Source: Lagopus muta
Taxonomy: Eukaryota; Chordata; Aves; Galliformes; Phasianidae
Reading direction: 5' to 3'
NCBI RefSeq assembly: GCF_023343835.1
Contig: NC_064436.1
Coordinates: 54,597,883 to 54,661,882 of the forward strand
DNA: 64,000 nt
The notes under the pieces were generated by a model. The model was given only the letters and a program-made list of their open reading frames with translations. It was not told the origin of the DNA and made no database searches. The position numbers were made by a program, and so were the translations under genes. Within the stretch, counting starts at the first letter, position 1. Each line of letters starts with the position of its first letter. Positions 2,143 to 64,000 of this stretch are shown one piece after another.

Positions 2143-2266
2143 CTTATAAAATTTCCTGTAAATTCGACCTGAAATACTCCCATTGTTGGCTGTCATCAAG
2201 TAGAGCAGGGTCACTTTGGGAAAACCCATTCTCGGTGATGTAAATTAGAGGGTTATTATATATATC
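2143..2266 (-). pseudogene. GBA3: GBA3 exon 4 remnant, nucleophile motif ITENG retained
   Basis: These 124 bp read [15 protein letters not shown]...SQQWEYFR...LQEIL on the minus strand. This is the segment that carries the GH1 catalytic nucleophile, the Glu of ITENG (codon at 2231-2233). Length and phase (0 in, 1 out) match the human exon, which encodes 41 residues plus one base. By recall, about 29 of 41 residues agree with human GBA3. Two lesions are visible. The bases just before the exon (2268-2267) are GG, so the canonical AG acceptor is gone. The last codon, Lys in human, is TAA (2146-2144). The donor (GT at 2142-2141) is kept. Confidence 0.92.
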
Positions 2267-2927
2267 CCAGAACAAGAGAGCAGAAGTTTTATTCAGAACA
2301 GATGTAAGAAAGCCCATAAAATCAGATGCATTACCCTCTATCTTTTCTAAGCTAAAACTAAAACTAGTTTTCATCAAATTGCAGTGACCCTATTAACTTA
2401 ATTTTCCATGAGCTGACCTTTTATGACTAACAATGGAAAAGCAAAACTGTGCAAATATCCATGAAGACAGTGAAATGACTTATTTTAATGAGAAGTCTAA
2501 AATATCTTTCCTGCATTAGCATCTGCTTATTGTGACTGCTCCTTAACCCCTTGGTACTGGCAGTCACCAGAAGTCCCATTGCCAGGGGTCGATCCATGCC
2601 AAGAATGCCTTACTGCTGGCATGAAAAAGATAATTTTTGGAGCTGAAAAGATGATAAAACACTGGTATTTCTTTTCAAACTGTAAAATAGCTATCAAGTA
2701 TAAAGGCAATAAGAAAACAATAAGGCTTTACTTTTTATAGCTGGCACACAAGCATTAAATTAAGAATCCCAAGGTGACTTGTTTATTTATATCTTATACA
2801 ATGTCTAATGCCATCCAGATGGGCTCCTCAAAAGAAAACAAATCACCAGTATTATTCGGTGGATTCTCAGATCCCCTTACTGGCCAGCTAGTAGTGGTTA
2901 AATTGTCCCGTGAGCCTTACGTCATAC
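2267..2927 (-). other. Former GBA3 intron 3
   Basis: This is the interval between the exon 3 donor (GT at 2927-2926) and the damaged exon 4 acceptor. It is AT-rich, with no second gene or mobile element recognised. Short open frames here have no protein-like composition. Confidence 0.7.
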
Positions 2928-3688
2928 TTTGATATAACACAGAAGTCAGTATAAACCCCATGGTACTTCAGCGAGCCATAGACTCCCAGTTGCAACAGAC
3001 CAAGAGGGATCCGTTATTTGCTCAGCCACACATGCCATTGAGACACTTAGCCTCTTGTCTGTGTTTTCTTGATCATAAGTGAAACGATTCAGAGCAAAGA
3101 AGTCAGCAGTACACAAGGCCATCATTTTTAACTCTTTACTAAGTTCTAGAAGCCTTTACGATTAGTAACATTGAACTAAACATGTAGCAGGACTTTACAA
3201 TGGCTTGATACTCACCACCAATAAATACTGTCCTGACAAAGCTTTTTAAGGTAAAGGACATGTACCCTTCCTTGTGGTTTGCTACCAAATTTACAGAAAT
3301 GCTGCCAATCTGAGTTCAGAGCTATAGGCACAGGTCCACGTTGTTTTCTCTAATTATCTTGACATAACGGTGCCAGGCTTTAGCATGAGCTTTTATCAAA
3401 TTATGAACTGCCTTGTAAGTTCTGGTGCAAGATTCTGTTGTAGCAGGGGCTATACCTTTTCTACGACCATGTATAGCAACAACATAAGGCTCATTAATAA
3501 TGATCCAAAGCTTCACTCAGTCTTCAAATGCTTTGCAGCAATATTTTGCACAAATTATCAAAGCTCTGAAAGATCATTTTAGATCTCCAACCACCTTCAT
3601 CTTCTAAAAAACTGGAGTAAGTCAAAGCAATACTGTGAACAGGATGTAATTTTCCAGGTTACTAATTATTTGCTGTAATAATTGACTC
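2928..3688 (-). pseudogene. GBA3: GBA3 exon 3 remnant, multiply frameshifted
   Basis: This is the large central GH1 exon, 761 bp, starting after a good acceptor (tttccag) in phase 1 and ending at an AAA before GT in phase 0, as in the vertebrate gene. Recognisable blocks in order on the minus strand are GVNYYSK (from 3688), Y.FDL (about 3630), LEDEGGW, the acid/base motif WIIINEP (to 3487), AVHNLIKAHAKAWH, VFIGGEY..IVKS (3191-3240), TADFFAL (3093-3110), ITDPSW and EVPWGLY..LCYIK (to 2928). Lesions: TAA at 3668-3666 with roughly 12 bp missing downstream; an extra T in a six-T run (3611-3606); an extra base near 3547-3541; TGA at 3519-3517 where human has an Arg codon (consistent with CGA to TGA); another frame change near 3326; TGA at 2948-2946. 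No single frame spans the exon. Confidence 0.93.
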
Positions 3689-5936
3689 CTGGAAATACTG
3701 AAAAGAATAAAGGGGTTAATTTATTAAGTGTATTACATTTTAACGCATAAAGAAACCACACTGCACATTTTGCTCTGTTATGAGATGCAAAAATTCTCTC
3801 TCAACTGTATGCTGACTACTGTGACAAGAGCCCAGAGTTGGCAAAAATGCTCAGCACACAACACATTTCATTCAGGCACATAAGACGAAAAGAGGATGCA
3901 AATTTTCAAAATAGATCAGTGGACAGCAACTCCCCAGGAGAAAAATAATTCTGATTGGTGCTGGTCACATGAAAATATAATCCTTTCATTTTAATTCCCA
4001 AATGGCAGCCTAGCTGCATGTACAAGATCAAAATGCATTGGAAAAATCCTGGCACAAGAGTTGGACAGGTAGATTTGTTCTAATGAAAGAATTTCTCTCC
4101 TTGAGAAGTGTATATTTTACAAAGTTTAGTTCCATACTCAGCAAGTTAAGTAAGACGATCTTTCATGATTTGAACTTTGTTTGCTGGTAAGCTGCTTCCT
4201 CCAGGCTGTTCTTTGTCACTCTCCATGCCAATATCAAGACAAAGAAGACACTACCAATGCGTTTAATACCTTGCAACGATGAGAATTCAATCATTTCCTC
4301 ATTAGATAGGGCAACTTACCAAATCTATGTGAGATTTACAACTTTTCATGGGGCTCTGGTATATTTTAGAGTTTGGGGTGTGGTCTATTTAACTACTAGC
4401 TCGAATGTCTTGGCAATAGTTTATCCAAGAAACCAACTCTCTTCCTTTTACACCACCATTACACAGACTGCTCAATCCTTCTGGTGCCAAGAAGGATTTA
4501 GCTCACCTCCTTAAAATCTCATGACTTCCAACCTCACTTGTCCCCCTTGATAAGACAGAGTTCAGCTATAATCTCTTGGATGCACTGTTAAAAGTGGCCA
4601 GCACTGGGGATGCATTTCTAGAGGCTTAAAGGGAATTCACCTTCTGTTCAGATTTAGTAGTGGTTGACATGAATATGTTTCCTAAAGGACTATTTTTATG
4701 CTGCTCCGAGTTCACTGCAAGTTTAAATATCAAAATACCTTAAGCTCTCACATAAGCATTTTTAATTTTACCTAAATCCAAACGCAGCTACATTGCTTTT
4801 TAAGCCTTCTGAAAATATTAGATATTGCAAAACATATCATAAGCTCTGGTTCAAAGAGTATCAATTAGCATGCTCTTTTACTAGAACTATCTGGTTTAGT
4901 GAAATAATTGGAAAAGGCCAACAGTGGCCTAGAATTATTATTTGTTAAGCTACAAGGCTCCAGCCAGGAGTAGTTCTCCATCATGCTGGGGAATGGAGAA
5001 ATCAGACAGCTTTTGCTTCAGAGACTTGGTCTAAATATACCAAAGTGTTAAAGAACCTTAGTGGGTTTTAGACTCCCACATATCCTAAAAAGACATAGCT
5101 GCTTAGGAAATGTCTATCTTGAGGATATGCTGCAAACACAAACAAAAGTCCAAACTAAAAAATGATTTCTAAAGTTGAGAATGCAGTAGAAAGTAGGAGG
5201 AGAAATTAAGAGAGAATAAATTAATTGCACAGATCAACAAAATATAGGCCTATGAGATTGTGGATGGTTTGTATTATTATTACCAATGTGTGAACAAAAG
5301 ATGTTTTAAATCCAAACAAGAAACCGGTTCATTAATAGATATGCCTGTATTACATCGTACTATGTATTTCCAGGGGTTTGTAGGTTCATCTTGGTGTGTA
5401 TTGATATTTAAAAATGTCAGCAGAGAATCCTGCATTAACTTCTTCTTAAAAAGACAATAATAAATTTCAGATTATCCTATCTTCAAGTTAAAACTTAAGG
5501 ACTTGTGTCAAATGGCTTTTTTTTAAACACAGCATATACTGCAGCAATCAATTAAGAACCCAATATCTAGACAGTGACTTCTTGTAAACAAACATGTGCA
5601 TACGCATCCTTTAACACAGAAAGACTCAATAAGTGTGTTTACCATGTAATTCACAATAAATCTCACAGGTAGTTTGCTTTTCCATCCGAATACATCACCA
5701 GAAGAACCGAACTTCTTAGGAGATATGCATATGAGTCTCAGAAGGCACCCTCATAAAAAGAGAAGGAATTTACTGGAACTGGAACTGTAATTTTTGATAA
5801 TTCTTGCCATTTGCAACCCATTTAGTGTAAAACCAGTTTGTTTCTGTTATATTTTAACAGGGAATCATTTGATCTGGTTGTGTGTTAACTGTTGCTGAAA
5901 GAACTGCAAGGTTTACTACATAAATTGATTTGAGGA

Positions 5937-5980
5937 AAAAAAAACAAACACAAACACAACAAAAACAACAACAAAAAAAG
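5937..5980. repeat. A/CA-rich simple repeat
   Basis: A low-complexity run of A tracts separated by single C residues (AAAC, ACAC and AACA units). No gene content. Confidence 0.85.
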
Positions 5981-6035
5981 CCTCTTCACTGGTACACGAT
6001 CCCATTCTACCACATTGGGAATCATGCTTCTATGG

Positions 6036-6080
6036 GGGTTTTCTATTCTAATAATAGGTAATAGGGTTTTCTATTCTAAT
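6036..6080. repeat. 17-bp direct repeat pair
   Basis: GGGTTTTCTATTCTAAT occurs perfectly at 6036-6052 and 6064-6080, separated by 11 bp. This looks like a small local duplication. Confidence 0.85.
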
Positions 6081-8497
6081 TTTCAGAGTAGCCTGATTTA
6101 GTTTTTATGGCTATATTTGTGGGTTATCTAAAAGCAGAAATACAGAAGAAATCTTTCTTCCAGGAAAGTGTACAGATAAGGGATTTTTGGAGACACAACA
6201 AAATTATGGGATTACAGTTTCTAAGGAGCACTTTATCACTGGAAAATGAAGGATTATTCTTCTCTCCTTGCTATTGTTTTTCTCTCCCCATCTTGATTCC
6301 CTGTCTGAATGCTGAAGTGAGGCAAAACATGCAACTCTCCAAGACTTAACAGCCCCATCGCGACTACTTCTGTCCTCCTCCACATCTGCACCCAGTGTAT
6401 AGCAGATAACATTCTGCTCAGAACAGCTTTTAGGGCACAAATAACATTGCTAAAATACTTCTCAAACAAACTGTGCAAGTTTTAACCTAAAATCAGACAC
6501 ACCCTACAGCAGTGCTGCTTTAAGAGCCCCCACACCCACTGAGTTGGAAACAGAATGGTTTTAAAGGTTTTCAAATGCCCTCTGTTTTAGGTGTGAAATT
6601 GGTAGGGAATCTCTTGGTGAGAACAATTTTATTTGAAAGGACATTGCTCTAAGCTTTCTAATTCTTCACATGCTCTTTATAAAAATGTTTATATAGAAGA
6701 TGATGGCCTTTCCATGCTAGGCAGCTACAATTGCTTCAACAGATCACTGCACAAGAGAAGTGAACTCCTGCCTAATGAAAGCTAGCCTACTTGGAGTTTC
6801 TCCAGTGCCCTTTCGCTAAATGTAAAGTTCATAATATTAATCAGGCAACTGCTTATACTACAGATCAAGTGAACATTTTCAGAAATTACAGCTGAGTTTT
6901 GTCAAAATTTTAGCTTCCCTTACCAAGTGTCTACTTGCATTCTCCCAGTCTGACATCCGAGAAACAAAAGCCTGTTCAGTGGGCTGTTCAGTGATGTTGC
7001 ACAGTGCCTGCAGCACTAGCTGAAGGAATATCAGGACAGGGAAGAAACTACAAGGACTCAGCCAAATTTAAATTCGTTGTGCCACAAAAAACATTCCAAG
7101 GGAAGTACAAGCTGTGCTAGTAAAAGTGGGCCACATATTGTAAACTTTGGTAGCAAAGGGAAGGCTTCCATTCAAGCCTCTACGGGATGCTGGCACAGTT
7201 TTTGCAGTCATGCTCTGCAGGGAAAATGGCTGGTTGGTCTGTTTACAGCAGATCCCCCAGCCCCCTCATTTGAATTCCTGAAACAAAAGCTCCTTCACTC
7301 TCTAGTGAGAAATGTAATCTGCAGGATGCAGAGGACAGACTGCTGCCTCTTGAATAGACAAGCTCTCCATGACCAAAATCTGCAGAAGAATATTGCTTCT
7401 ACTTCCTAGTGCAGATCAGGATAACCTGACTGACATTTTCTAAAAAAAACTTGTCCCTTTGTAGCCTTCCATCTTTGCAAGCTTCAAAACAATGAAAGAA
7501 AGGAATTATCAAGGTAAACATTGCCCCTGAAATGCAAAGCTACATATTTTCTTGATAGAATTGAGATTCAGAAGAGTAGGAGACAGAGCTAAGATTCAAA
7601 GGTTCATCCAAACGTACTTTGCTTTTGTTTTTCCTGGAACATCATCCTCCCAGAATAAAGGAGACCTCAGCCAACTGCTTTTTCCCATCCTTCCTAGTTC
7701 AGCTTCAGTTGCTTTTATAACTCATAATTCTCCTTATTTCTTCTTTTTTCCATTCCTTATTTTTTGCAGGGAAAACTACCATTTCCTTTCTTTTCCAATA
7801 AGTCATCTTCATCTTTTCCCCAGCCTATGCCAAAGGAATTAAAATTAAATCAGATGTGCAACAGATTCTATACCTGACATCTAGTAACCCAGCTGGCTTG
7901 TTTATATGTTATATCACTTTATGCTTAGACTTCTGCATCATCTGTTGAGATTGTGAAAATTCTCTTCAGAGTGTGGGCTGGCTTGTTTTGTCATAGACAT
8001 AGCTGTTAGCTGAGCCTAAAGAATCCCCTGTAATGTTCTAAAGAAAATATCTGGAAAAATTATGTCCCTCTTATTGTAAAACTGTCAACAAGAAGTTCAT
8101 TACATCAGAGTATGCTGATAACCTATCTAAATCTATTTGCCAAGTAAGAGACTTCTCCATTGCAAGCCATCCAAAAATATCCTCATGGCTAGGATTCTTG
8201 TAACTAAAAACATTCTGATGTAGCAAAATGATTTAGAGTAACAATTAAACTGATGTAAGCAAAAATACATAGGAAACATAATATTAATCCTATCCCAAAA
8301 GATTGTGCTATCCAAAGGGATCTAGAATATTAATTAGTAAGTTGTTGCAAACCTATAAAAAATCATCCCATAATTACTCTGAAAAAAGTTGCAATTTCAA
8401 AGCTACGCTGCAGAATAGCTTACTGGATTAATTATGCCAGACTGCAGCAATAACCTTGAATTAAAGCTGCAACCTTCTATTTTTAAGAAACAATTGC

Positions 8498-8722
8498 CTT
8501 TCTGGTTGATGAAACCTGTCGTCCCATCAGGTAACAGACGTGACCAGGAAAGAGAAAAGCGATAATGAGTCAATCCAAGCTGTTTGATACATTTCAAATC
8601 TTCCTCCCACAGAGTGTAGCTGCCACAAGCTACATCACCAGTCTGGTTCTTGAAAACTCGATCTCCTCCCTGATGGGTGAATGTGCCCCAGACATTAAGG
8701 CCCCTTCCATCTGTATTCCAGC
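8498..8722 (-). pseudogene. GBA3: GBA3 exon 2, coding frame intact
   Basis: These 225 bp (75 codons, phase 1 in and 1 out) read [20 protein letters not shown], then [20 protein letters not shown], then [20 protein letters not shown], then [16 protein letters not shown]. This is the N-terminal GH1 segment following the YQVEG motif. By recall of the human protein only about seven residues differ, with no stop or frameshift. The acceptor is the AG at 8724-8723 (...gcagaag). The donor position reads AAAG then GC at 8497-8496 rather than GT. Rare GC-AG introns exist, but here +5 is T, so the site would be weak. Exon 2 is far better preserved than exon 3. Confidence 0.93.
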
Positions 8723-9825
8723 CTTCTGCTTGAAAAACAAAACTTGGTTGTTACACTTTTGACATCAGAAAGCATATGTTGAATGTAAATATTTATCACA
8801 AAGTAGGCACAAGAACCTCAGAATCCTAAGAGAAAAGCTAGTGATATTCCCTTCCCCCTCCTCATATCATTTAAAGTAGCTAGGAACTTTCAAGCATTAG
8901 TATATATTTGCACTAGGTTTTGCATTTATTCATATTTTTGCTAGCTGCTAATTATTTGAAAATCCTGTTTCTAAAAGCACTCGGAGTTCTGACACGCTTC
9001 GTATTTCCTTAGCCAAAAATCTGATGTTTGCAACTCTGGAGATATTACAGGTTTTCACAAAAGGCATTTTCTAACACAGCTTCCATCCATAAATGTAAAA
9101 GATCAGTCCATATCAAAGAAAGCCTTTAGGGTATGAGAAATACATCCAACAAATAGGCACTTATGGCTTTCTAGATGTCCTTTGAAAATCCTGACAGTCT
9201 GTTAAAAAGAAAGGAATGCCATTATGAGCTATGGCCCTAGGCATATACAGGCTGAATTAATAACACAGCTCTGCAAAACTTCTGCTTTTTGCCTAGCCAA
9301 ACGTTCACAGAAATGAATTTTAAATGTTCAAAATCCCTGCACCATTTTCTTCACTCTCATAGACTGGAGAAATTTCTTTGCAATTCCAAAACAGAGGCAG
9401 TGAGATTATCTTTAAAATATTCGAAATCTCACTGTTGTCTGAGATCACACATTCTTAACATTACATACTATTGAAGCCAAAGAGATGTACCTTCCTTCCT
9501 GATGAGTTTCTTTGTCTTTCCAGAGCAATGCTGTAGCAGAGGTAAACATTCCATTTTTAATGTGGAGAGCTCTGTAAACTTAAACTCCTGCAAAGTGTGA
9601 TTTTATCATGAAATCCAAATGACCCCATGATGGCCAAGCACATTCACCAGCAAGATTTTTCAGAGCTCCAGTAAATGCTCTGTTACAGTTTTACTCTCTA
9701 AAAACTAAAATGACATTGTGTGTTAAAATCACGTATAAATTAAATATCAGTTGGGTTGTAAGATTAATAACTATATAATAGCTACATATCAATCCTCAAT
9801 AAAAGTGTTTTAATAATCAATTAGT

Positions 9826-12690: not shown

Positions 12691-15600
12691 TCTCAGTAGA
12701 TAGTGGAAGCTCCTCCCCATTTCCAATTCCTAACCATACGGTTCTGAGATTTGTAAAATCTTTTACCCTCTTCTTACTGCTCGGGCCAGAAGCGTTTAAA
12801 TGGAAGTGCTACATGTATTTGCATTAGATATAGCATCTATGCAATGAAGGAGAGATCTCTCCTTCCCTAGCTATTTGGCATTTAAAAATTGACACCTTCA
12901 ATTTGAAATGCTGCTGTAGCTGCACCCCAAGCAAATCCAGCTGGAAAAGCAATATCCTCCAGCAGCAGCTGCAGAGGAGAGGCGAATACACAGCATTATG
13001 TGATGCTATGGAGATGCGGGCCTCATTTGCAGACAACAGTTTCTGGCTCGATCACTCTTGCACTTGTTACAAGCAGATTCTATACTGAAGACAAAAATAA
13101 ACCCTGTGCAGCTTCACAGGCTGAAGGGCAAGCTATGCACTTTGCATATCTCAGGATTAGAGCAGAGAAGTTCAGTCACTAACAGTGGAAGTGAAGAAGG
13201 CAGCAGTGGAAAAGCCTACAGTGGTCACAGGGAAAGGGCTTCACTAACATACAGAGCAGGTGCCTCTTCTCCTCCCTCTTTTCCCCCACTGCCAGAGGGG
13301 TTTGTGGACCCTTAACACAACGTATATCCTTCAGAAAACAGGCAAAGGCTCATTTCCATCCCTTCCTAGCTTCAAAAAGCAGCAGCTTCTCTGCCCTTCT
13401 CACATCAAATGTATATCTTTTTTCTCTGTCCACACCAAAAAAATTGGTCTGTCCGTGCTGCAATGGATATGAAAGGCTGTTTTAGCCACTACGTGTTTAG
13501 CAATGGAAATCACTGAGTAGAAGAGAAAGGTTTATGTGGGAGTACAAGCAGAAGAGCTATCTTTCTCTTTCCTTGAAGTCTCATGGATACTCATTTTTTT
13601 TCACAGAGAAGCAGCGACAACTTTATGGCATGTGTGCCAGGACAAACATCTGCAGGGCAGCCCCTGGGTCCTCTCCTCTGCCTCCTGTCAGCACTGTACC
13701 TGCTGCCCTGTCACAGGCTGAGCAGGAAGTAGCCACAGGAGAGCTGGCTAAGCAGTAACAAGTGGGATGGACTGAAAGGAGTTGACTGCCCCTTTCCAGC
13801 AAACTGCAACACCTGGCACACTAGATGGCACTACTGTAATTTTTTTATTATTATTTATCTTCATTATTATTATTTTGAGTTAGAGAAGTTTTCTTCCCAT
13901 TTATTATGTTATTAAAGCCACACTGCTTTTACCAAGGTCAATATTTGCACTAATTGGACCATCAGATGATAACACACACCCTTCCGAGAAATATTCACAA
14001 CTTAAAAGTCAACTCATTAGCAAAATGAAAGCCTTTGCAGAGATACAGAGAAGCTGATTTAAATCCAAAGTGCACGTTACAGAACCAGACAGCGCAGATG
14101 CAGTGCAAAATGAATCAGACTTTCACAGCAGGCATGTGTTTCCTCAAGTGTCTTTCAAAGGAGAGGTAAAAGCATTATGAATACAAAGGAACAAGGAGGG
14201 AAATGAGGCACAGCATACCAACTTGTTCCCAAAACACACAATGACGCATATGGTAGGCAGACATGCCCCTTACACATTTCATAGAGATAACTGAAAACCA
14301 ATGCAATTAATGGGTTAATGTTCTCTGTTGAAATCAGCCTCCTCAGGCTTTCACATGCAAGCTATTGGACAGCTAACAGTAAAACACACTGGGGACATCT
14401 TAAACCATGATTAATAGGTATTAATGAACCAGAGTAATTATACATGTTTTTTGCATCACTAATGTTATTGGTAGGTACTTTTTAAAACCTAAGTGACATT
14501 AATTATTTTCCCAGAAAATCATACAATTCAATTTCACAAGAGATATAACAAATATGGAGCTCAGTAACATGGGGGAGGGGGCAGGCAGGAGATTGTAGCA
14601 ATAAAAACCCAATAAAAAGTTTTATAAAAATGTTTAACTATAAAAACAAGGCTAAAAAGTGTCACTGATGATTCCCAGGCAGGAATCAACATAGGCATAG
14701 ATGGGTTTTAGGAGAGACTGAGTGGGTGAAAGATATTCCATAAGCAGTCTGGTCTGGGGAAGAGTGAACAAAATTTGCCTCAGAGGTTAAGGCAGGTTCA
14801 GAGTAATGAGATAGCAGACTATGTCAGATAAGTAGGCAGATACTGACAGATGCAGAGCTTCAAAATTCAGAGAAGCTGAGTTTATAGCAGCTAATCTCCA
14901 TCTCTTCTGGCAACCCAATTCCTATATTTGTGACCTCATTTTGGGTTGTATTTCTGGATTCGTGAGCCCATTTCCTGTTGCAGATGTGGGACTTGCAGTT
15001 ATATCTCCATTAGATCCACTTCATGTCATGGCCCTTAGGATGCATACCTGGCTCCTCACGAAGCCTTATTTCTCTGGCAATTTTCCCCACATAGAGTAAG
15101 CAGTCTCACTTCACCCTAAAATTCAGTGGTTCACTGCTCCATTGTTTTTTTCTAACACTTACAAACACAAAACTTTAAGAGAAGCCAGTAATACCTAGAC
15201 ATCATTTTTTTCAATACAAGTGTTAGTTTAGTGTAGTGTTTTGGGTTTTTTGTTTGGTTGGCTGGCTGTTTTTTTAAACATCTGCTCTGACAGAGACTAT
15301 ATGTAATTTAAAAAGCTCAATTAAGGTATTCCAAGGAAAAACTGAGTAGTTCTTGGACATTGAAAACACTTGGATAAAGACAGTTTTGGCAAGTCAATAA
15401 AAATCAAGAGTAATTGGGTCTGATGCCAAGAGTTGGCAGCCCATCTTTACAAAATGCTAGGCGTTGTATCAAGGTGAAAGGTGAACAGGTTTTGGTTCTG
15501 GCCCTTTAGAACACATGGGATTAATTATTATCAGACTATATTGTCAAGATGGGTTCTTCCTGACTGAATCTCTGTTTCCTATCTACGTATTATAAATATG

Positions 15601-35216: not shown

Positions 35217-35580
35217 GTGCTCTTGCAGTCCAGAAAGCCAACCCTATCCTGTGCTGCATCAAAAGAAGCGTTGCCAGCAGAGCAAGGGAGGTGATCCTGC
35301 TACTCTACTCTGTGCTGGTGAGACCTTACCTGGAGTACTGCATCCAGATGTGGAGTACTCAATACAAGAGAGACATGGATCTGTTGGAGTGCATCCAAAG
35401 TAGGGCCACAAAAATCATCCAAAGGATGGAACACCTTTCCTATGAGGATGGGCTGAGAGAGCTGGGGTTGTTCATCATGGAGAAGAGAAGGTTCTGAAGC
35501 ACAACTTTTCAGTATCTAAAGGGAACCTACAAGAAAGAAGGGGACAAACTCACAGGGGCTGTGGTGATAAAGGGAAGCGG
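35217..35580 (+). mobile_element. CR1 LINE fragment (ORF2 C-terminal part), truncated at both ends
   Basis: This is typical CR1 text. It runs from a CCAGAAAGCCAACC..ATCCTG start through a GCATCAAAAGAAGCGTTGCC segment, ACTCTGTGCTGGTGAGACC, TGGAGTACTGCATCCAGATG, ATCCAAAGGATGGAACACCT and GGGCTGAGAGAGCTGGGG to a TATCTAAAGGGAACCTACAA segment. A 68-codon piece of the reverse transcriptase C-terminus (LLYSVLVRPYLEYCIQMWS) is still open. The copy stops without the usual CR1 3' end, so it is interrupted or deleted on the right as well as 5' truncated. Confidence 0.9.
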
Positions 35581-40171: not shown

Positions 40172-40437
40172 ATGCTGCCCCCGCTCCGCCGCGCTCCCTG
40201 CCGCCCGCTTCGCCCCCGTGCCCGGCGCCCCGCGCGCCTCCTGGCCGCGCTCCTTCTCGTGGCGGCGCTGAGGGGCGGCGGCACCGCGCTGCCCCCGGGC
40301 TGTAAGTACGACGGGCGCCCCAAAAGCTCCGGCAAAGCGGCGGCTGGCGGCCCGCTGGAGGTGAAGGTGGTGTGCAGCAACCTGGAGCTCGCTCATGTCC
40401 TGCCTCCCGAGGCTCTGCCCAACCGGACGGTCACGCT
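40172..40437 (+). CDS. ADGRA3: ADGRA3 exon 1: signal peptide and LRR N-terminal cap
   Basis: ATG 40172 is the first ATG in this frame; the frame stays open upstream but only with non-ATG codons. It has G at -3. Residues 1-22 hold eight arginines, residues 23-33 (LLAALLLVAAL) form the hydrophobic core, and cleavage probably follows Ala39 (GGGTA, then LPPGC). Cys44 and Cys68 belong to the LRR cap. Asn84 (NRT) is a glycosylation sequon conserved in human. The exon ends with CT before GTGAGTA (40438), 88 codons plus two bases (phase 2). The arginine-rich n-region is unusually long and differs from the human leader, as leaders often do. Confidence 0.96.
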
Positions 40438-43400
40438 GTGAGTACGGTCCCGGGGGTGGTGATTTTGTTGGGAAAGAAGTCCGTGAAGCGCTGTGCGTGT
40501 GGGGGCTGCGCGGGGTGGTCCCGCCCCGCCGTGCATCGTCCCCGTGCTCCCAGCTTCGTCCTAACTTCGGGTTACGTTCAGGCGCGCTGTTTGTACGTGG
40601 ACTCGATCCGAGCTCAGCCATTTGAATAACAAGTTTCCAGCAGGATGTGCAGCTTATTCCAAACTAAGTAATGCGTTACTCTTCACGGGAAGGGTTTGCA
40701 AGTTGTTTTTCTTTTCTTCCTGAGACGCTATCTGAAGCTATGCAGTAACACTGAATTTCATCAGAGATGGCCCAAAAGCCTGTGATTTTTTTTTAGGGAG
40801 CCTGTGTTTCTGTGGGAGGGCTCGAGTGTGATTGAGTAGTGTGCAAGAAAGTTGATGAAAAGTGACAGTAGCATAGGGTCTGGCTTAATATGCTTACTTA
40901 TTTTGCTGCAATGAATGTCTTCAGGAATGGGACATCCACCACATCTCTGGTCAGCCTGTTACACTGCCTCACTACCCTTATTGTAAACAACATTTTCTTT
41001 ATACCCAATCTAAATCCTTCCTCTTTTCGTTTGAAACCATTTCCCTTTGTGCTATCATCACAGACCCTACTAAAGAGTCTGTACCCTTCTTTCTTGAAGG
41101 TTCCCTTTAGATACTGAAAAGCTGCTGTCAGGTCACTTCAGAGTAGTCTCCAGGCTGAACAGCCTCAGTTCTCCCAGCCTTCGTTGTAGGAGAGGTGTTC
41201 CATCCCTTGGATCATTTTTGTGGCCTTCCTCTGGATATGCTCTAACAGATCCATATCTCTAAACTTATGTACTTTTGTCGTGAGAGCAACAGTTTGACTG
41301 TTGCCTTTGTGAACTTTGACAGCACTTAAACCTGGTGGAAGGGCTTCTTTGAGAAGTTAGAGTGAGATGTGTACCCTAGTCGTAAGGGCCAGTCAGTGGG
41401 AAAGGGGAAGACCAAAAAAGAGGGGCCTAAGTAGTTTCCCTCAGCTTGTCAATGTGCAAGGGATTGGAACATTTTTAAATGACCTGTGAGAAGTGACCAG
41501 AATTATTCCTGTGTGAAGTTTCTGAAGTAGAAAGGAAAGCAAAAAGTGAAAGGTGAAAGCTCTTTGATCAGCAAATTGATTTCGGTCTTTGTTAGCTGTA
41601 AGTGTTATGCAGCTGATTAGCTGTTAAAAATACAGTATTATCCACAAAAAAAAAGATAAAAGTATGTATTAGTCTGGATGATATGCTGAAGTTGACAGTG
41701 GGGGTCTTTTGATTCAAAAAGCTTGGAGTCACAGCTGTGATTACTGTGAAAGACAAGCAAATATCAAATATAGCATCCTTGCTGTGAATGGACCTTTGTG
41801 CATAATTGCAATGACAGAATAATTTGGAAGAATTCATTTCGTTTTGATTCTTCATACTCCTTCGTTATCTAGAGCATATCTTCATACATTAATTATTTGC
41901 TTTCATTTCTAACCAGCCTTTGAAGTGCATGACTACTTCTGAAACAGATTTTCCCTTCAGTACTCCTAACTTTTTAAATGTCTTAACTGGAAAACACATT
42001 GTTTCTTGCTGTTTTCTCTAGTAAGTATCATAACAGTGTTGATAGAATCAATGTGAATGCACACTTTGAAATTTTACTTAAATGTTACTTAAAAGATTAT
42101 TAAACTGATGCATCTGGTTTTTCTAAGTAAGTGGACACAGTGGTTGTTGTGTTTCGGAATCTTTCAGGTTTCTTCATTTCAGAGGTGTAACTTTCCATAT
42201 CTCTGAGATCATTGTACTGAGTCAGTGTTAACCTGGTTAGAAAACATTGGTGATTTATGAGTTGGGTTGCCTTGTGCCATTATGTGCAATTTCACTAACA
42301 TGTTGTTTAATAGTGACTGAGTTAATTGTTATCTAATCTTTTTCCAAAATTACTTTTTTTTTTCTTTTTTTCCTCCAAGCTGATACTTGGAACTGCAGTG
42401 GTTGGTGGGTAGTGGAAAGTTTTCTGATTAGAGTCAAACTGCCCTGAATTATCTTGAATCTTGATTCTTGTGGGATTCTTCTATTAAGATAAGTCCTACT
42501 TCTATTATAGCTTTTTGGATTAGTGGATCACTGCTGAGATAAGTAGCTGAAAATAGATCACTGTTGTGTAAATCAGCTATGTTTTAATTCAGTTAATTTT
42601 CTTTTATGTTCTTATTTTGCACAAAGCAATTTTAAATATGAGGACAATTGTGTAGTTTTATATAAACAGTGTCTTGTTTTTCTGAGAGTGAGCTGGGAAG
42701 GACTCAAGTGTTTATTCTTGAGAATCTTGATTCCATCCTCATCACTGTTCAAACTCCTGCGCTTTCAGTAGATGAACTGCTGCGCATTTAGCATTTACAC
42801 CTCCGTATTTTTCCTTCTGACCTATTTTTGAGGATAAAACTGTCTAAAAAGTGAGGAAAAGAAAATCAAAGGAAATGAGGATAAACAAGTTCGCATCCCA
42901 GTTCTTGCACATTGTTGTAGTTGGTGGTTAATAATAGCTTTGGTAGGTTTGGCAAGGTCACAACTTAGGAAATGGCTGGCTTTTGTTTGCCACAAAACCT
43001 TTCATTGCCCTTGTAATTTAGGTCACTACTGGTTACAATTACTTAGAATCTGCAGTTACAATTCAGAAAAAAGTAAAACCCTAACTATTTCAATTAATAA
43101 AGGTTAAAGTAAGGTTGCTTTGTGGTTGAAGAAGAAAATACTGAAATAAGTGCTTTAAAGTATGGAGAGATGTGTACAGGAGAATAAGTAATGTTTAGGA
43201 TTTAGGACTGCAAATTGAGATTCCTTTAGAATGTAATTAGAATTAGCTAGTGCTTTGCTAAGCAGTTACTCACATTCACCTTGAAATTTGACCTTCAGTT
43301 ATGGCCAAGGAAGGGACTTGTAGCCTTATATAATAAAAAGTGATTGGGATGCAAATGAAGGGTGTACCTACATGAACATCCCACATTGCTTTGACCTTTG

Positions 43401-52400: not shown

Positions 52401-55400
52401 AATAAATTTTACAGGATGAGACGGTGGTGTTCACTGGAGAGCTTTTAGAAGAACTCGAGGATGGAGAGTCAAATGATGGATGACTGAAGTCGCACTTAGA
52501 ATGAACTTACATATCCTGTTGTGGGAAGTTCTTCACAATCAGCAAAATATTGACAAAAATGATCCAGTTGATGGAGTAAGACATAGGACATTTTCTAAAA
52601 GGCATCTTGCAGTCCCTTGCCAAAGGCTTTTGAAGAAAAATGTCAGCACAAAATGAGAAAGCGTTGTATCAATAGCTGAATTGTTAAAAGATAAGAGCAA
52701 ACGTGGAAGTAAATGGTCAGTGTTCTCAATGGAATGGAGTGTTCCATACCTGAAATGTATAATGTATTTGTTAGTGACCTGTGGAAGAGGGTTTCTGGGG
52801 TGACAATTTTGAGTTACCTAATAAGGATGAGGATAAATCAATGGATTTCAGACGTTTATGAAAGCAATAACTGGGCAGCAAAATGGCAGAAGTAGCACAC
52901 TAGGGAAGTAAAAAATGTTATTGGTAACAATAACTGTTCTGTCTAAATATGTGAGATGGCAGGCTGTGGGCTGACCAGCGTACTTCAGTTTACAGTACCA
53001 GTGGTAAAGGCAGACCAGATGTTAAGAATTGCTGGGAAAACAATAGGGAACAAAATAAAACATTGTTACATCACTATGTAGGTTTGTAACTTTTCCAAGC
53101 CTTGACTGCTATTTTGGTTTTTGTAGTCTTGTCTCAAATTTTGAGTTAATAAAACTGGAAGAAGCTCAGAAACTAGTGAGAAAGTACTAAATGACTTCTG
53201 TGTGAGAAGTAATTAAGGAAAATATGCATCTTCCCATCTGGCAAAAGGCAGTCTGGAACTATACACAATTGTGTGTGGTAAAGAGAGGATAGATATGGAT
53301 TGATCGCTGCTTGCTTTAGTGCTTCCCCTGTATAGCATTGAAGGAAGCTGATAGGAGCCACGATGAAAGCAAAGGAAATGAGGTGTTCTTTGTCAAAGTT
53401 TCGTAATGTGAAACCCTTTGCTAAGGAATGTTTTGGATGCCAGAATGGTATTCAAGAATGGTTTCAGAAGGAAAATAGGAAAAAGGTGATAGAAGTAGGA
53501 AGTGCAACCTTCAAAGTAAGGAATCATCCATGAGATTTCATATCTTGAGGATATTTGCATTTGCAGATGACTGCTGTTTGAAACAGGGTACTGTATGGAA
53601 GAAGAAACTTGAGTTACATGTGGTCCTTCAAAGAGAAACAAGTAATGGATAGAAGGACTTATCAGCTTATTTAGCAAATAATATAGCAAATAATTTTGTT
53701 ATTCAATTTGTAATATACTGTTCATTTCTGTTCTATTTACAGGATTCTGAGCAACAATAAAATAACAGAGCTGAAGAATTGTTCCTTCTCTGGATTAAAC
53801 CTTCTTGAAAGACTGTAAGCGCTTCTTTAAAATATTTTTCACTTCAAAATAAGAGTTATATTCTGTTTATTTCATTAATAACTCTGGTATCAAGATGTTT
53901 GTTTTATTTGAATGTAGCCTTCTGTGATTGCAGTGTTAATATAGTTAAGAATACATGAAAATTAGTTTTATATAACAGCAAAAAGGGAACTTAGCTAAAG
54001 TTGCAAACGATGAAATTAGGTGTAAACGAAAAAAAATTGAAACCCAATTGACCAACCAAAGAAACCCGACCCACATAAATCAAACCAAACAAGAAGAACA
54101 AGAACGGCCAGCCAACCCTGTAAATTCGTCAATGACATTGGCAATGGGATTGCACGCTACCTCAACAAGATTGTAGGTGACAGTAAACTGTGTGTTGCAG
54201 TCAGCATGCCTGAGAGATGGGATGCCACACACAGAGGACTAGACAGGCTTGAGCAGTGAACCTCGTGAGGTTTGAAAAATACAAGATCTTGCACCTGGAT
54301 CATGGCAACCCTCACTATTAATACAACTTGGGAAACTAGAGGATAGAGCATAGCCCTGCCTAAACGAATCTGCTGGTGGATGGCAAGCTGGACATGAACC
54401 AGCAGTGTGCCTTCGCAGCCCAGAAACCCAACCAAGACGCCCATCCTGGGCTGCATTGAAAGAAGCGTGGCCATCTTTTTGGTTGAGAAGGGTGATCCTG
54501 CACCTCTACTCTGTGCTGGTGAGACCTCACCAGGAGTACTGTGTCCAGATATGGAGTTCTCAGCCACAAAAATGATTAAAGTGGTAGAATGCCTCCCCTA
54601 CAAGGGCAGGCTAAGAGAGCTTGGGCACTTCTGGAGAAGTGAAGGTTGTGAGGAGGCCTGATAGTGGCCTTTCAATATCTAAAGGGGAGCTATAGGTAGG
54701 AAGGGGATGGAATCTTAATCGGGGTCTGTTGTGGTAGGATGTGGAGAAATAGTTTGAAATTAAAAGAGGGGAGATTTTTATTGGAAATAAGAAAAAAGGT
54801 TTATTTTAAATAACTGTGGTGAGGCACTGGAATGGATTGCCCAGAGGTGTGGATACCCTGTCCTTGGGGACATTCGAGGTCAGGCTGGATGGGACTCTGA
54901 GCAGCCTGATCTAGATGTAGGTGTCCCTGTTCATTGCAGGGGAGTTGAATTAGATGACCTTCCAGTACCTTAACGGGGCCTATGGGGAAGCTGGATAGAG
55001 GCTTTTTGTAAGGGCATGTAGCAACAGGAAAAGGGGAAATGATTTTGACTGGAAGAGGGTAGATTTAGACAAGATATTAGGAAGAAGTTCTTTACTGTGA
55101 GTGTGGTGAGACTCTGGAACAGGTTATCCAGAGAGGTTGTGGATGTCTTCTCCCTGGTGGCATTCAAGGCCAGGGTGGATGGCGCTTTGAGCAACCTGGT
55201 CTAGTGGAAGGGTCTTAAATATCCCTTCCAACTCAAACCATTCTATGACCTTTAAAGCTCTCTCCCAATCCTGGTGATTCTGTGACTTTTCCAGAGGATG
55301 CAAATGTATTATAACCTCTAAAAGAGGGCATCTGCAGTGTCAGTTTGTTATTGACATATATGTTAACAATTTTTCTTGTTATTTTACTATCCTTGCATAT

Positions 55401-61400: not shown

Positions 61401-62858
61401 TTAAATATGAACAGTGTCATTTTTCTTCTTTGCCCCAAAGACTGATGGTAAATAAGTGATGACCAACATTTCATATTCTCAGATTTGTCAGTGTCAGGAC
61501 TGGATTTTTCAGCCTTCTTGAAAGAGCTTTAAAAATGTTCGCTTTTCAGGTCCCTGTGCGGCAGTCCCTGCTCCATATGGGGCAAGAAAATGAAATTGAG
61601 ATGAGAGATTGGCGTATATACCATTGCTTTGTTTAATTTTAATTTGCAATGCTGCAAGGTAAATGTAAAGTATTTCGACTATTGAAAATATGTATTAGGC
61701 TTGGCAGTGAGGCATGAAGCATGTGCCATTGTCTGTTGTACCCTATCTGACTCATCTGGCTGCAGGAAATGCTATTGTGAAATCTTGTGGCAAACTTGGG
61801 TTTCCATTCATGTGTATTTGTGTAATGGTAGATATAATCCTCATGTACTGTTTTTGTTGGTTTTTTTTTGGCAGAATTATTAATGTTAGTAGATTTAAAT
61901 ATTTTTTTTCTATTCCAACTCTCTAAAACACTGCTTTTAATTGGATTTACTAATTTGTTTTCAACTGTGAAGCTTTTTTATATTACCAAAGGAATTTGAA
62001 CTTTTTCTCATCATAGTGCCTGAGAAGCTTTGAATCATAATACAGTACAAATATTGGATGAATAAGGAGGTGAAAATATTTTTAGCAGTGATAAAGTTTG
62101 TTCGAAACAGTAAATGCTGACAGATACTTTCTCTGATCTTTGAAGCTACGCTGTATCTGCAATACATCTGAAGTTAGGGTTTAAAACTCCTATGTCACTT
62201 GTACAGTTAATAAAGCAGATTAATAGCTCCGGTCTTCTGTTCTGAAAATGGAAGATCTAAAAACTTATGCTCTGTGTTTTCACCATCTTTATTTGGGATT
62301 TTCAGCCAAAGCTTTCTTTTTTTTTTCCGGTAATATTGATGGAAACTTTCAGTTGTCTTCAGTATTTTGAGGATCTTGTTTTGCTGCTTTTGGTAGATGT
62401 TGGACAAGTACTAAGATGTGACTGAACATTATGACACCAAGATAAAATGCATTATACTGTATAATAAGCAAATATAGTACATCCTGAGCAGCTGTAATCT
62501 ATTTGGGTACTATGGTAAAAATATCTTCAATTGTACCCTTACTGTACTGAAAACTGATAGGACATTTAAAATAACACATGCTGTTCACGTTCCTCTTTCT
62601 GGTTAAAATATGGATTTGCAAATTTTGAAAGATGTGATTGTGTTAGAAAAATGAGAAATGTATCGTGTAGTGTTTTGAGGCAGCTTGCAAATTAGCTGAA
62701 ACAATTTAGGTGTAATCTTGAATCATGAATGTCTATACTTAATGGGTAGTTTGTGACTGAAGTAATGTCTTAATTTTTCTCTGCAGGGATCTTAAGAACA
62801 ACCTTATAAGTACTATAGATCCAGGAGCTTTTCTGGGGCTTTCATCTCTGAAAAGACT
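40172..62858 (+). CDS. ADGRA3: ADGRA3 (GPR125), 5' part: join of exons 1-3, continues beyond window
   Basis: Adhesion G-protein-coupled receptor A3 is a plasma-membrane protein with an N-terminal leucine-rich repeat region, an Ig domain, a hormone-receptor domain, a GAIN domain and seven transmembrane helices. It binds Dishevelled through its C-terminal tail, and GPR125 in zebrafish influences planar polarity and Dishevelled clustering. The window holds join(40172-40437, 53743-53814, 62787-62858): signal peptide, cysteine-containing N-terminal LRR cap and the first two LRRs, 136 complete residues. All junctions are phase 2, and the LRR exons are exactly 72 bp, the usual one-repeat-per-exon arrangement. 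The spliced product matches the human N-terminus closely by recall (LPxGCKxDGRP, VVCSxLELAxVLPP, LPNRTVTLILSNNKI, LLERLDL.NNLIS.IDPGAF). Remaining exons lie right of 64000. The divergent GBA3 neighbour supports orthology. Confidence 0.97.
40905..41262 (-). mobile_element. CR1 LINE fragment, antisense in ADGRA3 intron 1
   Basis: The reverse complement shows CR1 3' coding and UTR order. On the plus strand it reads gaatgggacatccaccacat, gtcagcctgttacactgcct, catttccctttgtgctatca, ccctttagatactgaaaagc, ggctgaacagcctcagttct, cagccttcgttgtaggagag and tggccttcctctggatatgc. It is moderately diverged, truncated at both ends, and lies 470 bp downstream of exon 1. Confidence 0.88.
44067..44083. repeat. 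Poly-T tract
   Basis: A T homopolymer in intron 1. A similar run occurs at about 45989-46006. Confidence 0.8.
47462..47491. repeat. Tandem 15-bp duplication
   Basis: CATGTCTAGACAAAT is followed directly by CATGTCTAGACAAAG. The unit contains the palindrome TCTAGA. Confidence 0.9.
49760..49800. repeat. AAAC/AAC simple repeat
   Basis: An interrupted ACA/AAAC run. Low complexity. Confidence 0.85.
50814..50838. repeat. Poly-T tract (25 nt)
   Basis: A T run directly followed by GCTGCTGCTG. No retrocopy was recognised on either side. Confidence 0.85.
51331..51353. repeat. (GT)n(TA)n microsatellite
   Basis: TGTGTG leading into about eight TA units. Confidence 0.9.
52380..53665 (+). mobile_element. 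Ancient CR1/L3-like LINE remnant (ORF2 to 3' end)
   Basis: Heavily decayed segments follow the order of an old amniote CR1/L3 element. A GATCCAGTTGATGGAGTA segment is followed by AAAGGCTTTTGAAGA (an SKAFD-type block), AATTGTTAAAAGATAAGA, AAATGGTCAGTGTTCTCAAT, TTTGTTAGTGACCTG, AGATGTTAAGAATTGCTGGG, AACAATAGGGAACAAAATAA, ACTGGAAGAAGCTCAG, TTTGTCAAAGTTTCGTAATG, ATGCCAGAATGGTATTC, GAGGATATTTGCATTTGCAG and GGGTACTG. It carries many indels and no open frame, and ends about 80 bp before ADGRA3 exon 2. Identification is by pattern recall of CR1/L3 consensus order. Confidence 0.6.
53743..53814 (+). CDS. ADGRA3: ADGRA3 exon 2: first leucine-rich repeat
   Basis: 72 bp between ttctatttacag and GTAAGC. 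It completes Leu89 and reads ILSNNKITELKNCSFSGLNL, then LER, ending in CT (phase 2). It fits the LxxLxLxxNxIxxL repeat with the NNKI asparagine ladder. Human has Gly where this copy has Cys (KN-C/G-SFSG, by recall), adding a possible free cysteine. The sequon (NCS here, NGS in human) is kept. Confidence 0.97.
54115..55288 (+). mobile_element. CR1 LINE (outer copy), interrupted by a second CR1
   Basis: The outer copy occupies 54115-54961 and resumes at 55253-55288. Landmarks in order: GCATTGAAAGAAGCGTGGCC, CACCTCTACTCTGTGCTGGT, CAATATCTAAAGGGGAGCTA, GGACATTCGAGGTCAGGCTG, CCCTGTTCATTGCAGGGGAG and TAGATGACCT. It then resumes with TTAAAGCTC..CCCAATC and a degenerate GATTCTGTGA end. This reconstruction explains why the CR1 3' end is reached twice. 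A broken 84-codon piece of the reverse transcriptase region is still open near 54.4-54.66 kb. Confidence 0.88.
54962..55246 (+). mobile_element. CR1 3'-end copy nested in the outer CR1
   Basis: A short 5'-truncated CR1 starting at CCAGTACCTTAACGGGGCCT and running through GTAGATTTAGACAAGATATT, GTGAGACTCTGGAACAGGTT and GCATTCAAGGCCAGGGTGG to the terminal ATTCTATG. The outer element's GACCTT occurs on both sides (54956-54961 and 55247-55252), extending to ATGACCTT if the element's own terminal ATG is counted. This is a likely short target-site duplication. Confidence 0.82.
59190..59238. repeat. (ATTT)n / TA-rich simple repeat
   Basis: TATATTTATT and TTTGTTTG units over about 50 bp. Confidence 0.85.
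60044..60066. repeat. Poly-T tract
   Basis: A T homopolymer of just over 20 nt. Confidence 0.85.
60165..60385 (+). mobile_element. Older CR1 3'-end fragment (sense)
   Basis: Reads GGAAGAGGTTACATGGTTCC, then ATCTCCATCCTTTGAGGATG, TCAGAACTTGACTGGATG, GAGCAGCTGATCTGATTTAG and GACCATATGACCTC. This corresponds to the CR1 3' region in which a GAGGTTGTGGA..TCTCCATCCTTGGAGAT motif leads to GACTGGATA..GAGCAACCTG and ATGACCTC. Diverged and 5' truncated. Confidence 0.7.
62787..62858 (+). CDS. ADGRA3: ADGRA3 exon 3: second leucine-rich repeat
   Basis: 72 bp between ttctctgcag and GTAAGT. It reads (L)DLKNNLISTIDPGAFLGLSS, then LKR, ending in CT (phase 2). By recall it matches the human DLRNNLISSIDPGAFWGLSS repeat closely. 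Its donor is close to consensus. The next LRR exon lies beyond the window. Confidence 0.97.
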
Positions 62859-62933
62859 GTAAGTAGTATATCTAACCCATCAGTTTAAGGGGGAAAAAAA
62901 AAAAGAAAGAAAGATATAAATATCTTTTAATAT

Positions 62934-62976
<43 letters not shown>

Positions 62977-64000
62977 TATCTTTGTATATACACACACACA
63001 CATATATATATATACTTTTATATGTAGGAATGCATATATATTGAGAGTTTTGCTGTCTAAATATATACACATTTACATCTACGTATAAATAGAAGAACAA
63101 AGTTCTTCAGTTGATCTGACTGAAGATCATCTACTGCATGTGGCTTGGAAGTCTCACTTGATGTTACTGGTAGTCTCTCTTGTATTATTCCTCTCTTTTT
63201 CTATTTCTATGACTTCCGACATCACTGGGTGAATGTTCAGTCAGAGCTTTGATGCCATCAAGTGTTGCTTTGATGAATGTTAAACCTGTCATGGTTTTGG
63301 CTTTTTTTCTTCAAAAGGTCATAGTGGAACACAGAGTCCCTTGCTATTAATATTACACTGTAGCAACAGGGCTGCTAATGCTGCATTATTGAAGGTTGTG
63401 CCAATGTTTCCATTAACACGTTTCTGCAGGATTTATACCTTGACTCAAAACTGTTTCAGATGAAGCTTGAAAAAACAGGATGTCAGTATGACAGCTTTTC
63501 TTAAAGACTTTGAATTTTCAAAATATCTGGAACAGATTTTACAGCATGGAAGTCTTAGTTATTTTTATTTTTATTTAATTTTGCCACTTTCCCTCTTATA
63601 TTTTCATCACATATATTTGTCATTGTTTAGGTGATCCGGCTCACTTACTGTGGACCAACTATGGACTTCTTGAAGCTTAAGTTTTATCCCTTCAAGAGTT
63701 ATTAGGAATTTTAGGATCTACATTATAAATAATGTAATATATATTAATATAAATATAGACATATCTGTGTGTCATAAAAGAACTGATAAATATTTTGGCA
63801 AGTCAAAAAATTAACTGAAGTAGCACATGAATATACTGTACAGATGCAAAAATATGCTTTGTGGTGAAACAAGCAAAGATCATTAAATAAGAAGTGACTT
63901 GAAAGCTCCATTTGAGCAAACCATTACTGCTTTAGAAATGGGTTAAGGAGTGTGCATGCATCTGTTTGTACATCTATACACCTGTGCCTTTTGATTTTTT
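62859..64000 (+). other. Start of ADGRA3 intron 3
   Basis: Intronic AT-rich sequence to the right edge, containing the TA/CA microsatellite listed separately. No further exon is visible. Confidence 0.85.
62935..63016. repeat. (TA)n / (CA)n compound microsatellite
   Basis: About 80 bp of TA units with an ACACAC block, 77 bp into intron 3. A likely length-polymorphic locus. Confidence 0.92.

Follow-up and report, generated by a model that had tools for sequence, protein, structure and literature searches.

A dead GBA3 gene whose distal exon 2 may have been retained as a cis-regulatory exonic remnant

Introduction

Loss of GBA3 recurs in mammals. In the text consulted of the mammalian survey, GBA3 pseudogenes are reported in 24 of 99 species, arising from at least nine events, so that loss alone is ordinary (PMC7360587). 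Mammalian lesions for which that text names an exon lie in exon 3, 4 or 5, mostly in exon 3, and for exon 2 only the GC donor of the manatee is named; the text consulted does not compare the preservation of exon 2 with that of exon 3 (PMC7360587).

Two further kinds of system are relevant, namely remnants of coding exons and genomic regulatory blocks. According to passages of PMC3342275, the exonic remnants of Dong et al. 2010 arise from genome duplication. Passages of PMC6906185 describe a human genomic regulatory block in which GBA3 is a bystander and PPARGC1A, DHX15 and SOD3 are the predicted targets. In the passages used of PMC2446394, Gba3-Gpr125 linkage is given for stickleback and medaka, Kcnip4-Gba3-Gpr125 is placed together with Nkx3.2 'in tetrapods', and the Kcnip4-Gba3-Gpr125 linkage dates back to teleosts. 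We found no report of GBA3 loss in a bird in the literature searched, judged largely by titles, and the passages of PMC11585764, PMC12249185 and PMC2446394 describe no bird GBA3 sequence.

Here we analyze the GBA3 locus in a stretch of 64,000 nucleotides (the window). The enzyme has been lost at this locus, as the state of exons 1-4 shows. We consider it an evenly balanced proposition that this is a dead GBA3 with distal exon 2 retained, most likely as a putative cis-regulatory exonic remnant.

Results

The GBA3 locus and its neighbour

The following features were located in the window.

12896..12953, minus strand: GBA3 exon 1, coding part; human residues 1-20; start codon ATT; donor GT intact, phase 1
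8498..8725, minus strand: GBA3 exon 2; human residue 20 (part) to the first base of 96
8498..8660, minus strand: distal exon 2 block; human residues 42-96; putative retained element
2927..3688, minus strand: GBA3 exon 3; human residues 97-361; frameshift-tolerant alignment
2143..2265, minus strand: GBA3 exon 4; human residues 362-402; 29/41 identical; donor GT intact
40274..40438, plus strand: ADGRA3 (GPR125), part of the first coding exon; head-to-head neighbour of GBA3; tblastn E=1e-17

The original prediction had exons 2-4 in order, and they were found so on the minus strand; we added exon 1, which it had overlooked. Used alone as a tblastn query, human exon 1 gave E=1.3e-8 with 15 of 20 residues identical in the aligned row (14/20 when residue 20 is read across the splice junction). 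Exon 2 matched human GBA3 in the PDB (cytosolic beta-glucosidase; phmmer E=2e-45) and Pfam PF00232 (E=6.7e-24), and the match of exon 4 (E=2.4e-15) was beyond chance. Exons 1-4 span 10.8 kb with introns, showing that this is not a processed copy. Within the window tblastn found a single GBA3 copy, and a search by the same means for a second, intact copy of exon 3 in the window found none. Exon 5 was not found by tblastn in positions 1-2140, where the best ungapped local score was 27 against 40 shuffles with a mean of 28.9 and a maximum of 41; it may sit outside the window.

The query for ADGRA3 was a human N-terminus, and the exon stretch that it matched had no Pfam match. Two other stretches, which we take to be CR1-like fragments, were likewise without a Pfam match, and three CR1 3'-end patterns had 2, 0 and 0 matches in the window, none convincing and one of them inside exon 2. 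The two putative CR1-like fragments are what the reading of this genome as that of a bird is based on.

The visible gene is broken in exons 1, 3 and 4

At the start position of exon 1 the ATG is gone. Exon 3 carries 5 frameshifts, 5 stops and 8 in-frame gaps in the frameshift-tolerant alignment. The alignment bore out the three stops that had been predicted, TAA at 3668-3666, TGA at 3519-3517 and TGA at 2948-2946, and two more TAA codons were found at 3164-3162 and 3158-3156. Both predicted one-base insertions, an extra T in a T run and an extra base shortly after it, were recovered as +1 shifts, placed at 3614-3611 and 3553-3550, each within 3-9 bases of the claimed site. The frame change predicted near 3326 held in that the frame is disturbed in this region, but not in its position: there are two shifts, one at 3348-3347 and one at 3301, and both lie over 20 bases from the predicted site. 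The remaining frameshift is at 3174. The acceptor of exon 4 reads GG (2267-2266) instead of AG and its last full codon is TAA (2146-2144), just as had been predicted, and the exon 3 donor is ambiguous (AAAGTATGAC).

Both catalytic glutamates, E165 and E373, are still encoded as Glu at their aligned codons, yet the frame around them is broken, and the locus thus holds no functional GH1 open reading frame. The disabling lesions lie in the GBA3 copy at the orthologous position, beside ADGRA3/GPR125, as in a unitary pseudogene. Because the start codon, the exon 3 frame, the exon 4 acceptor and the last exon 4 codon are all broken, the visible gene is unable to make the enzyme, and enzyme loss at the locus, which the original prediction had put forward, is well supported. 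Alternatively, the gene could be alive and its exon 3 lesions could be artefacts of sequencing or assembly; we give this a negligible probability, given that so many frameshifts, stops and gaps and such low identity in exon 3 stand beside a lesion-free exon 2, and that the start codon and the exon 4 acceptor are changed too.

Exon 2 and exon 3 are unevenly preserved

Exon 2 is open, without stop or indel, and has an intact AG acceptor and a GC donor (8497-8496). This donor is not a lesion because GC is the conserved state of the exon 2 donor in mammals, as given in the text consulted (PMC7360587). Over residues 21-96, 69 of 76 residues are identical to human GBA3, and the longest identical run comprises 55 residues, 42-96 (55/55), at the end of the exon. 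In exon 3, 104 of 265 residues are identical (39%). The word 'decayed', which the original prediction used of the whole gene, therefore suits exon 3 but not the nearly intact exon 2. That prediction did not describe the sharp fall in identity from 55/55 in the last part of exon 2 to roughly 40% across exon 3.

Exon 2 is probably slow in living mammals: the guinea-pig enzyme is near the human one there and has diverged further in exon 3. The raw identity contrast is not usable alone, because exon 2 may already have evolved slowly while the gene was alive. In comparisons with distant GH1 proteins, exon 2 is not markedly slower than exon 3: identities between human GBA3 and 8in1 domain 2 were 39/74 in exon 2 and 124/264 in exon 3, with 8in1 domain 1 they were 32/75 and 95/252, with beta-klotho d1 32/72 and 87/202, and with beta-klotho d3 18/67 and 109/252. 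Beta-klotho, a GH1-fold protein that to our knowledge is not known as an enzyme, entered this comparison only and stands outside the reference set described below.

We defined a GH1-conserved site as one shared with human by at least 60% of 20 GH1 relatives, with stricter cuts at 75% and 90%. The relatives, assumed to be working enzymes, were 18 loci and the two 8in1 domains. In the genome contig collection 87 pattern matches yielded 30 GH1 loci with 32-55% identity and prokaryote titles, and no vertebrate exon 2; 18 of the 30 were kept (ORF of 380-700 aa, two GH1 motifs) and 12 dropped. In the viral contig collection 3 stretches matched the pattern, none of them a relative, and a search for mammalian exon 2 letters by way of qPCR primers found no GBA3 primer in the literature passages searched.

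At the 60% cut exon 2 keeps 25 of 26 conserved sites and exon 3 keeps 26 of 49 (p=7.3e-5; p=0.001 at 75% and 0.0059 at 90%). Even neutral decay across exons, which is usual but not strictly defining for unitary pseudogenes, is not what these sites show. This argues against a plain unitary pseudogene, in which all exons drift and an exon 2 that was very slow before the loss has been spared by chance since. The same sites also provide support for it: there is no significant difference between exon 2 and the pooled exons 1 and 4 (p=0.3, 0.29 and 0.1 at the three cuts). At the loosest cut exons 1 and 4 keep 17 of 20 conserved sites, which is better than exon 3 (p=0.015); the difference is not significant at the stricter cuts (p=0.12 and 0.7). 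Since exons 1 and 4 are better kept too, and exon 2 resembles them, the exception may be exon 3.

One way for this to arise is that exon 3 was lost before the rest, and that coding selection persisted for a time on an isoform lacking it, which would give the other exons their fresher look. The end of exon 2 and the start of exon 4 share phase 1, so the frame survives when exon 3 is skipped, and a human isoform of 162 aa (UniProt) would skip exons 3 and 4. A protein without exon 3, however, lacks the acid/base E165; the start codon, the exon 4 acceptor and the last exon 4 codon are broken as well; the conservation of exon 2 does not track GH1 importance; and our literature search found no report on a GBA3 isoform with exon skipping. 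We regard this history as quite unlikely.

Distal exon 2 under a neutral clock

We calibrated a neutral clock on the 5 stops in exon 3, which gave a median d of 0.14-0.16 per site. The distal block consists of 54 full codons and the first base of codon 96, and the probability of no amino-acid change in its 54 codons is 2-3e-4 for a block picked after seeing the data in one sequence. This again speaks against the plain pseudogene, whereas the tests on the whole exon are kinder to it. In the unpicked Poisson test the probability of 7 or fewer changes is 0.02-0.03, rising to 0.03-0.04 with the split codon 20 counted as an eighth change. The probability of a lesion-free exon 2 is 0.27 with frameshifts only, 0.07 with stops added and 0.01 with in-frame gaps added; for these seven gaps were used, against the 8 that the alignment shows. 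Moreover, 7 of the 76 residues of exon 2 have changed, among them D33, which is found in 20 of 20 relatives and was lost 9 codons upstream of the distal block. Taken together, we judge the plain pseudogene to be an unlikely explanation, and exon 2 has probably been preserved by selection, as the exon-to-exon contrast in one sequence suggests.

The distal block keeps 34 of 34 GH1-variable sites (one sequence compared with human). Because these variable sites are kept while D33 is lost, the putative constraint would act on the DNA rather than on the fold. A constraint on RNA would be another form: exons 1-2 might be spliced to new exons, giving a non-coding or new coding RNA under selection. The GT donor of exon 1 and the AG acceptor and GC donor of exon 2 are all present, as this would need. 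Folding of exon 2, however, gave z scores of -1.48 and -0.41, which is no signal of RNA structure, and the exon matched no family in Rfam; we find such an RNA very unlikely.

Discussion

We propose that GBA3 died as an enzyme gene and that, as exon 3 decayed, purifying selection would have continued to act on distal exon 2 (8660-8498). This part of the exon may double as an exonic enhancer, a cis-regulatory element in the DNA that would act on a nearby gene, for instance PPARGC1A or ADGRA3. The protein role could then be lost while the DNA was not free to change. Preservation of exon 2 as a putative cis-regulatory DNA element is, in our estimate, a little short of an even chance. A broader version is more tentative, and we lean against it: distal exon 2 would be an ancient dual-use exon, encoding enzyme only incidentally and serving the PPARGC1A/ADGRA3 neighbourhood as a conserved regulatory element, and it would have outlived the enzyme here and perhaps also in mammals that independently lost GBA3. 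GBA3 does not occur in the main text of PMC13216554, a survey of exonic enhancers.

If the lineage reading is right, the recurrent loss of GBA3 known from mammals also occurs in a second class of vertebrates. Should exon 2 prove to be a regulatory element that survived, an oft-lost gene would cleanly separate coding from regulatory constraint in one exon, in the neighbourhood of PPARGC1A, a metabolic master regulator. Were the dual-use exon true, recurrent loss of GBA3 would be a natural experiment parting coding from regulatory constraint.

The locus resembles the mammalian GBA3 pseudogenes in that the same gene is affected and that stops and frameshifts are named mostly in exon 3 in the text consulted (PMC7360587). 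As given in that text, exon 4 of the African elephant has likewise lost its AG acceptor and contains a stop, and the GC donor of exon 2, present here, is retained in all mammals except the manatee (PMC7360587). It differs from them in that this is a non-mammal, the loss being independent if the lineage reading is right, and in that the start codon is lost too. The proposed role resembles exonic enhancers and remnants, in which a coding exon or its remnant is kept for the cis-regulation of a neighbour (passages of PMC13216554 and PMC3342275); the remnants of Dong et al. differ, since here there is one copy in the window, known from its sequence alone. It also resembles genomic regulatory blocks with bystander genes, GBA3 itself being a bystander in the human block, although the blocks in the passages of PMC6906185 are human-mouse and do not come from the present genome.

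Coding lesions and loss of the enzyme

The human GBA3 protein sequence (in agreement with PDB 2e9l_A at 469/469 residues) was aligned with the minus strand of the window by a frameshift-tolerant method. The exons of this cytosolic beta-glucosidase lie as follows:

12953-12896, minus strand: GBA3 exon 1 (tblastn 15/20, E=1.3e-8), absent from the original prediction
8725-8498, minus strand: GBA3 exon 2 (E=2e-45)
3688-2927, minus strand: GBA3 exon 3
2265-2143, minus strand: GBA3 exon 4 (E=2.4e-15)

The matches of exons 2 and 4 to the human enzyme are far beyond chance. Exon 3 was found to carry five frameshifts, five stops and eight in-frame gaps, exon 2 was free of lesions, and direct reading of exon 4 showed a GG acceptor and TAA as its last full codon. 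The lesions that the original prediction had read in exons 3 and 4 are thus real, except that the single frame change placed near 3326 resolves in this alignment into a pair of shifts, one at 3348-3347 and one at 3301. The donor of exon 3 (2927-2928, minus strand) is ambiguous: AAAGTATGAC gives GT only with the loss of one expected-phase base. Exon 1 has an intact donor, ATT at the position of the human start ATG, and an in-frame TAA upstream with no ATG in between. A search of 1-2140 turned up no exon 5. We did not count the GC donor of exon 2 as a lesion because it is reported as conserved in the mammals studied, manatee excepted (PMC7360587). Because the start codon, the exon 3 frame, and both the acceptor and last codon of exon 4 are broken, the enzyme cannot be made from the present sequence, and its loss, as predicted, is borne out.

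Uneven decay between exons

Identity to human GBA3 was 14/20 in exon 1, 69/76 in exon 2, 104/265 in exon 3 and 29/41 in exon 4; it is unbroken over residues 42-96 (8660-8498, hereafter the block) and drops to ~40% immediately at exon 3. We then considered sites where the human residue is common to at least 60% of 20 relatives from the same glycoside hydrolase family, GH1 (18 prokaryote ORFs from 30 loci and two domains of 8in1), since this avoids guessing the living GBA3 of this lineage. Exon 2 retained 25/26 such sites and exon 3 26/49 (Fisher p=7.3e-5; p=0.001 and 0.0059 at stricter cuts), with 8/9 in exon 4 and 9/11 in exon 1. In comparisons of distant GH1 proteins, the rate of exon 2 is not markedly below that of exon 3. 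It may be so at closer range, because between guinea pig and human GBA3 there are few differences in exon 2 and more of them in exon 3.

A neutral clock calibrated on the five stops of exon 3 expects ~17-19 amino-acid changes in the block, where none was observed (P=2-3e-4, for a block picked post hoc); for the whole of exon 2, which was not picked, P(<=7 changes)=0.02-0.03 and P(<=8)=0.03-0.04. The absence of lesions in exon 2 has P=0.27, 0.07 or 0.01, depending on what is counted, and taken alone is weak evidence.

An isoform without exon 3 that outlived the full gene would be expected to leave the same uneven picture. Consistent with this, and against selection on exon 2 in particular, pooling exons 1 and 4 also gives better retention than in exon 3 when the loosest cut is used (17/20 vs 26/49, p=0.015), but not significantly so at stricter cuts (p=0.12, 0.7). 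Nor does exon 2 significantly exceed this pool (p=0.3, 0.29, 0.1). The lost start codon and the lesions of exon 4, however, count against such an isoform. Exon 2 is so far an interesting and testable anomaly in a single sequence, and was probably maintained by selection.

Nature of the probable constraint and neighbourhood

If the enzyme fold had been protected, GH1-invariant sites would be expected to be kept before variable ones. Yet the block retains 34/34 GH1-variable sites, whereas D33, present in 20/20 GH1 relatives, is lost nine codons upstream. This points to a constraint on the nucleotide sequence or on some other newer function, rather than on the enzyme. Exon 2 gave no RNA structure signal and matched no Rfam family.

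With a human ADGRA3 (GPR125) query, the head-to-head neighbour of GBA3 was found to be this gene, in three collinear pieces:

40274-40438, plus strand: ADGRA3 piece (E=1e-17)
53732-53794, plus strand: ADGRA3 piece (E=0.001)
62788-62859, plus strand: ADGRA3 piece (E=5e-8)

Gba3 and Gpr125 have been described as linked across lineages from teleosts to tetrapods (PMC2446394). A TA-rich tandem repeat (62915-63014) lies directly past the third piece. Two fragments at 35290-35361 and 54491-54562 (plus strand), 89% identical across 72 nt, we take to be CR1-like retrotransposon; the ORFs surrounding them had no Pfam match.

For a human genomic regulatory block whose predicted targets are PPARGC1A, DHX15 and SOD3, GBA3 appears in the list of bystander genes (PMC6906185). 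Exonic enhancers as a class are well established (PMC13216554, PMC3342275), though the main text of PMC13216554 does not name GBA3. Given these reports and the apparently un-enzyme-like constraint, we tentatively favour, as the likeliest single mechanism though at somewhat less than even confidence, that exon 2 was retained as a putative cis-regulatory exonic remnant after the enzyme was lost.

Comparison with mammalian losses

We found no report of GBA3 loss in birds in the literature searched, largely at title level, and "bird", "avian", "chicken" and "reptil-" do not occur in the main text of PMC7360587. According to that study, 24 of 99 mammals have lost GBA3, through nine or more events, so the loss confirmed here is of a kind already known. 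The elephant gene, with three exon 3 stops, a missing exon 4 acceptor and an exon 4 stop (PMC7360587), has damage of the same kinds as that described here.
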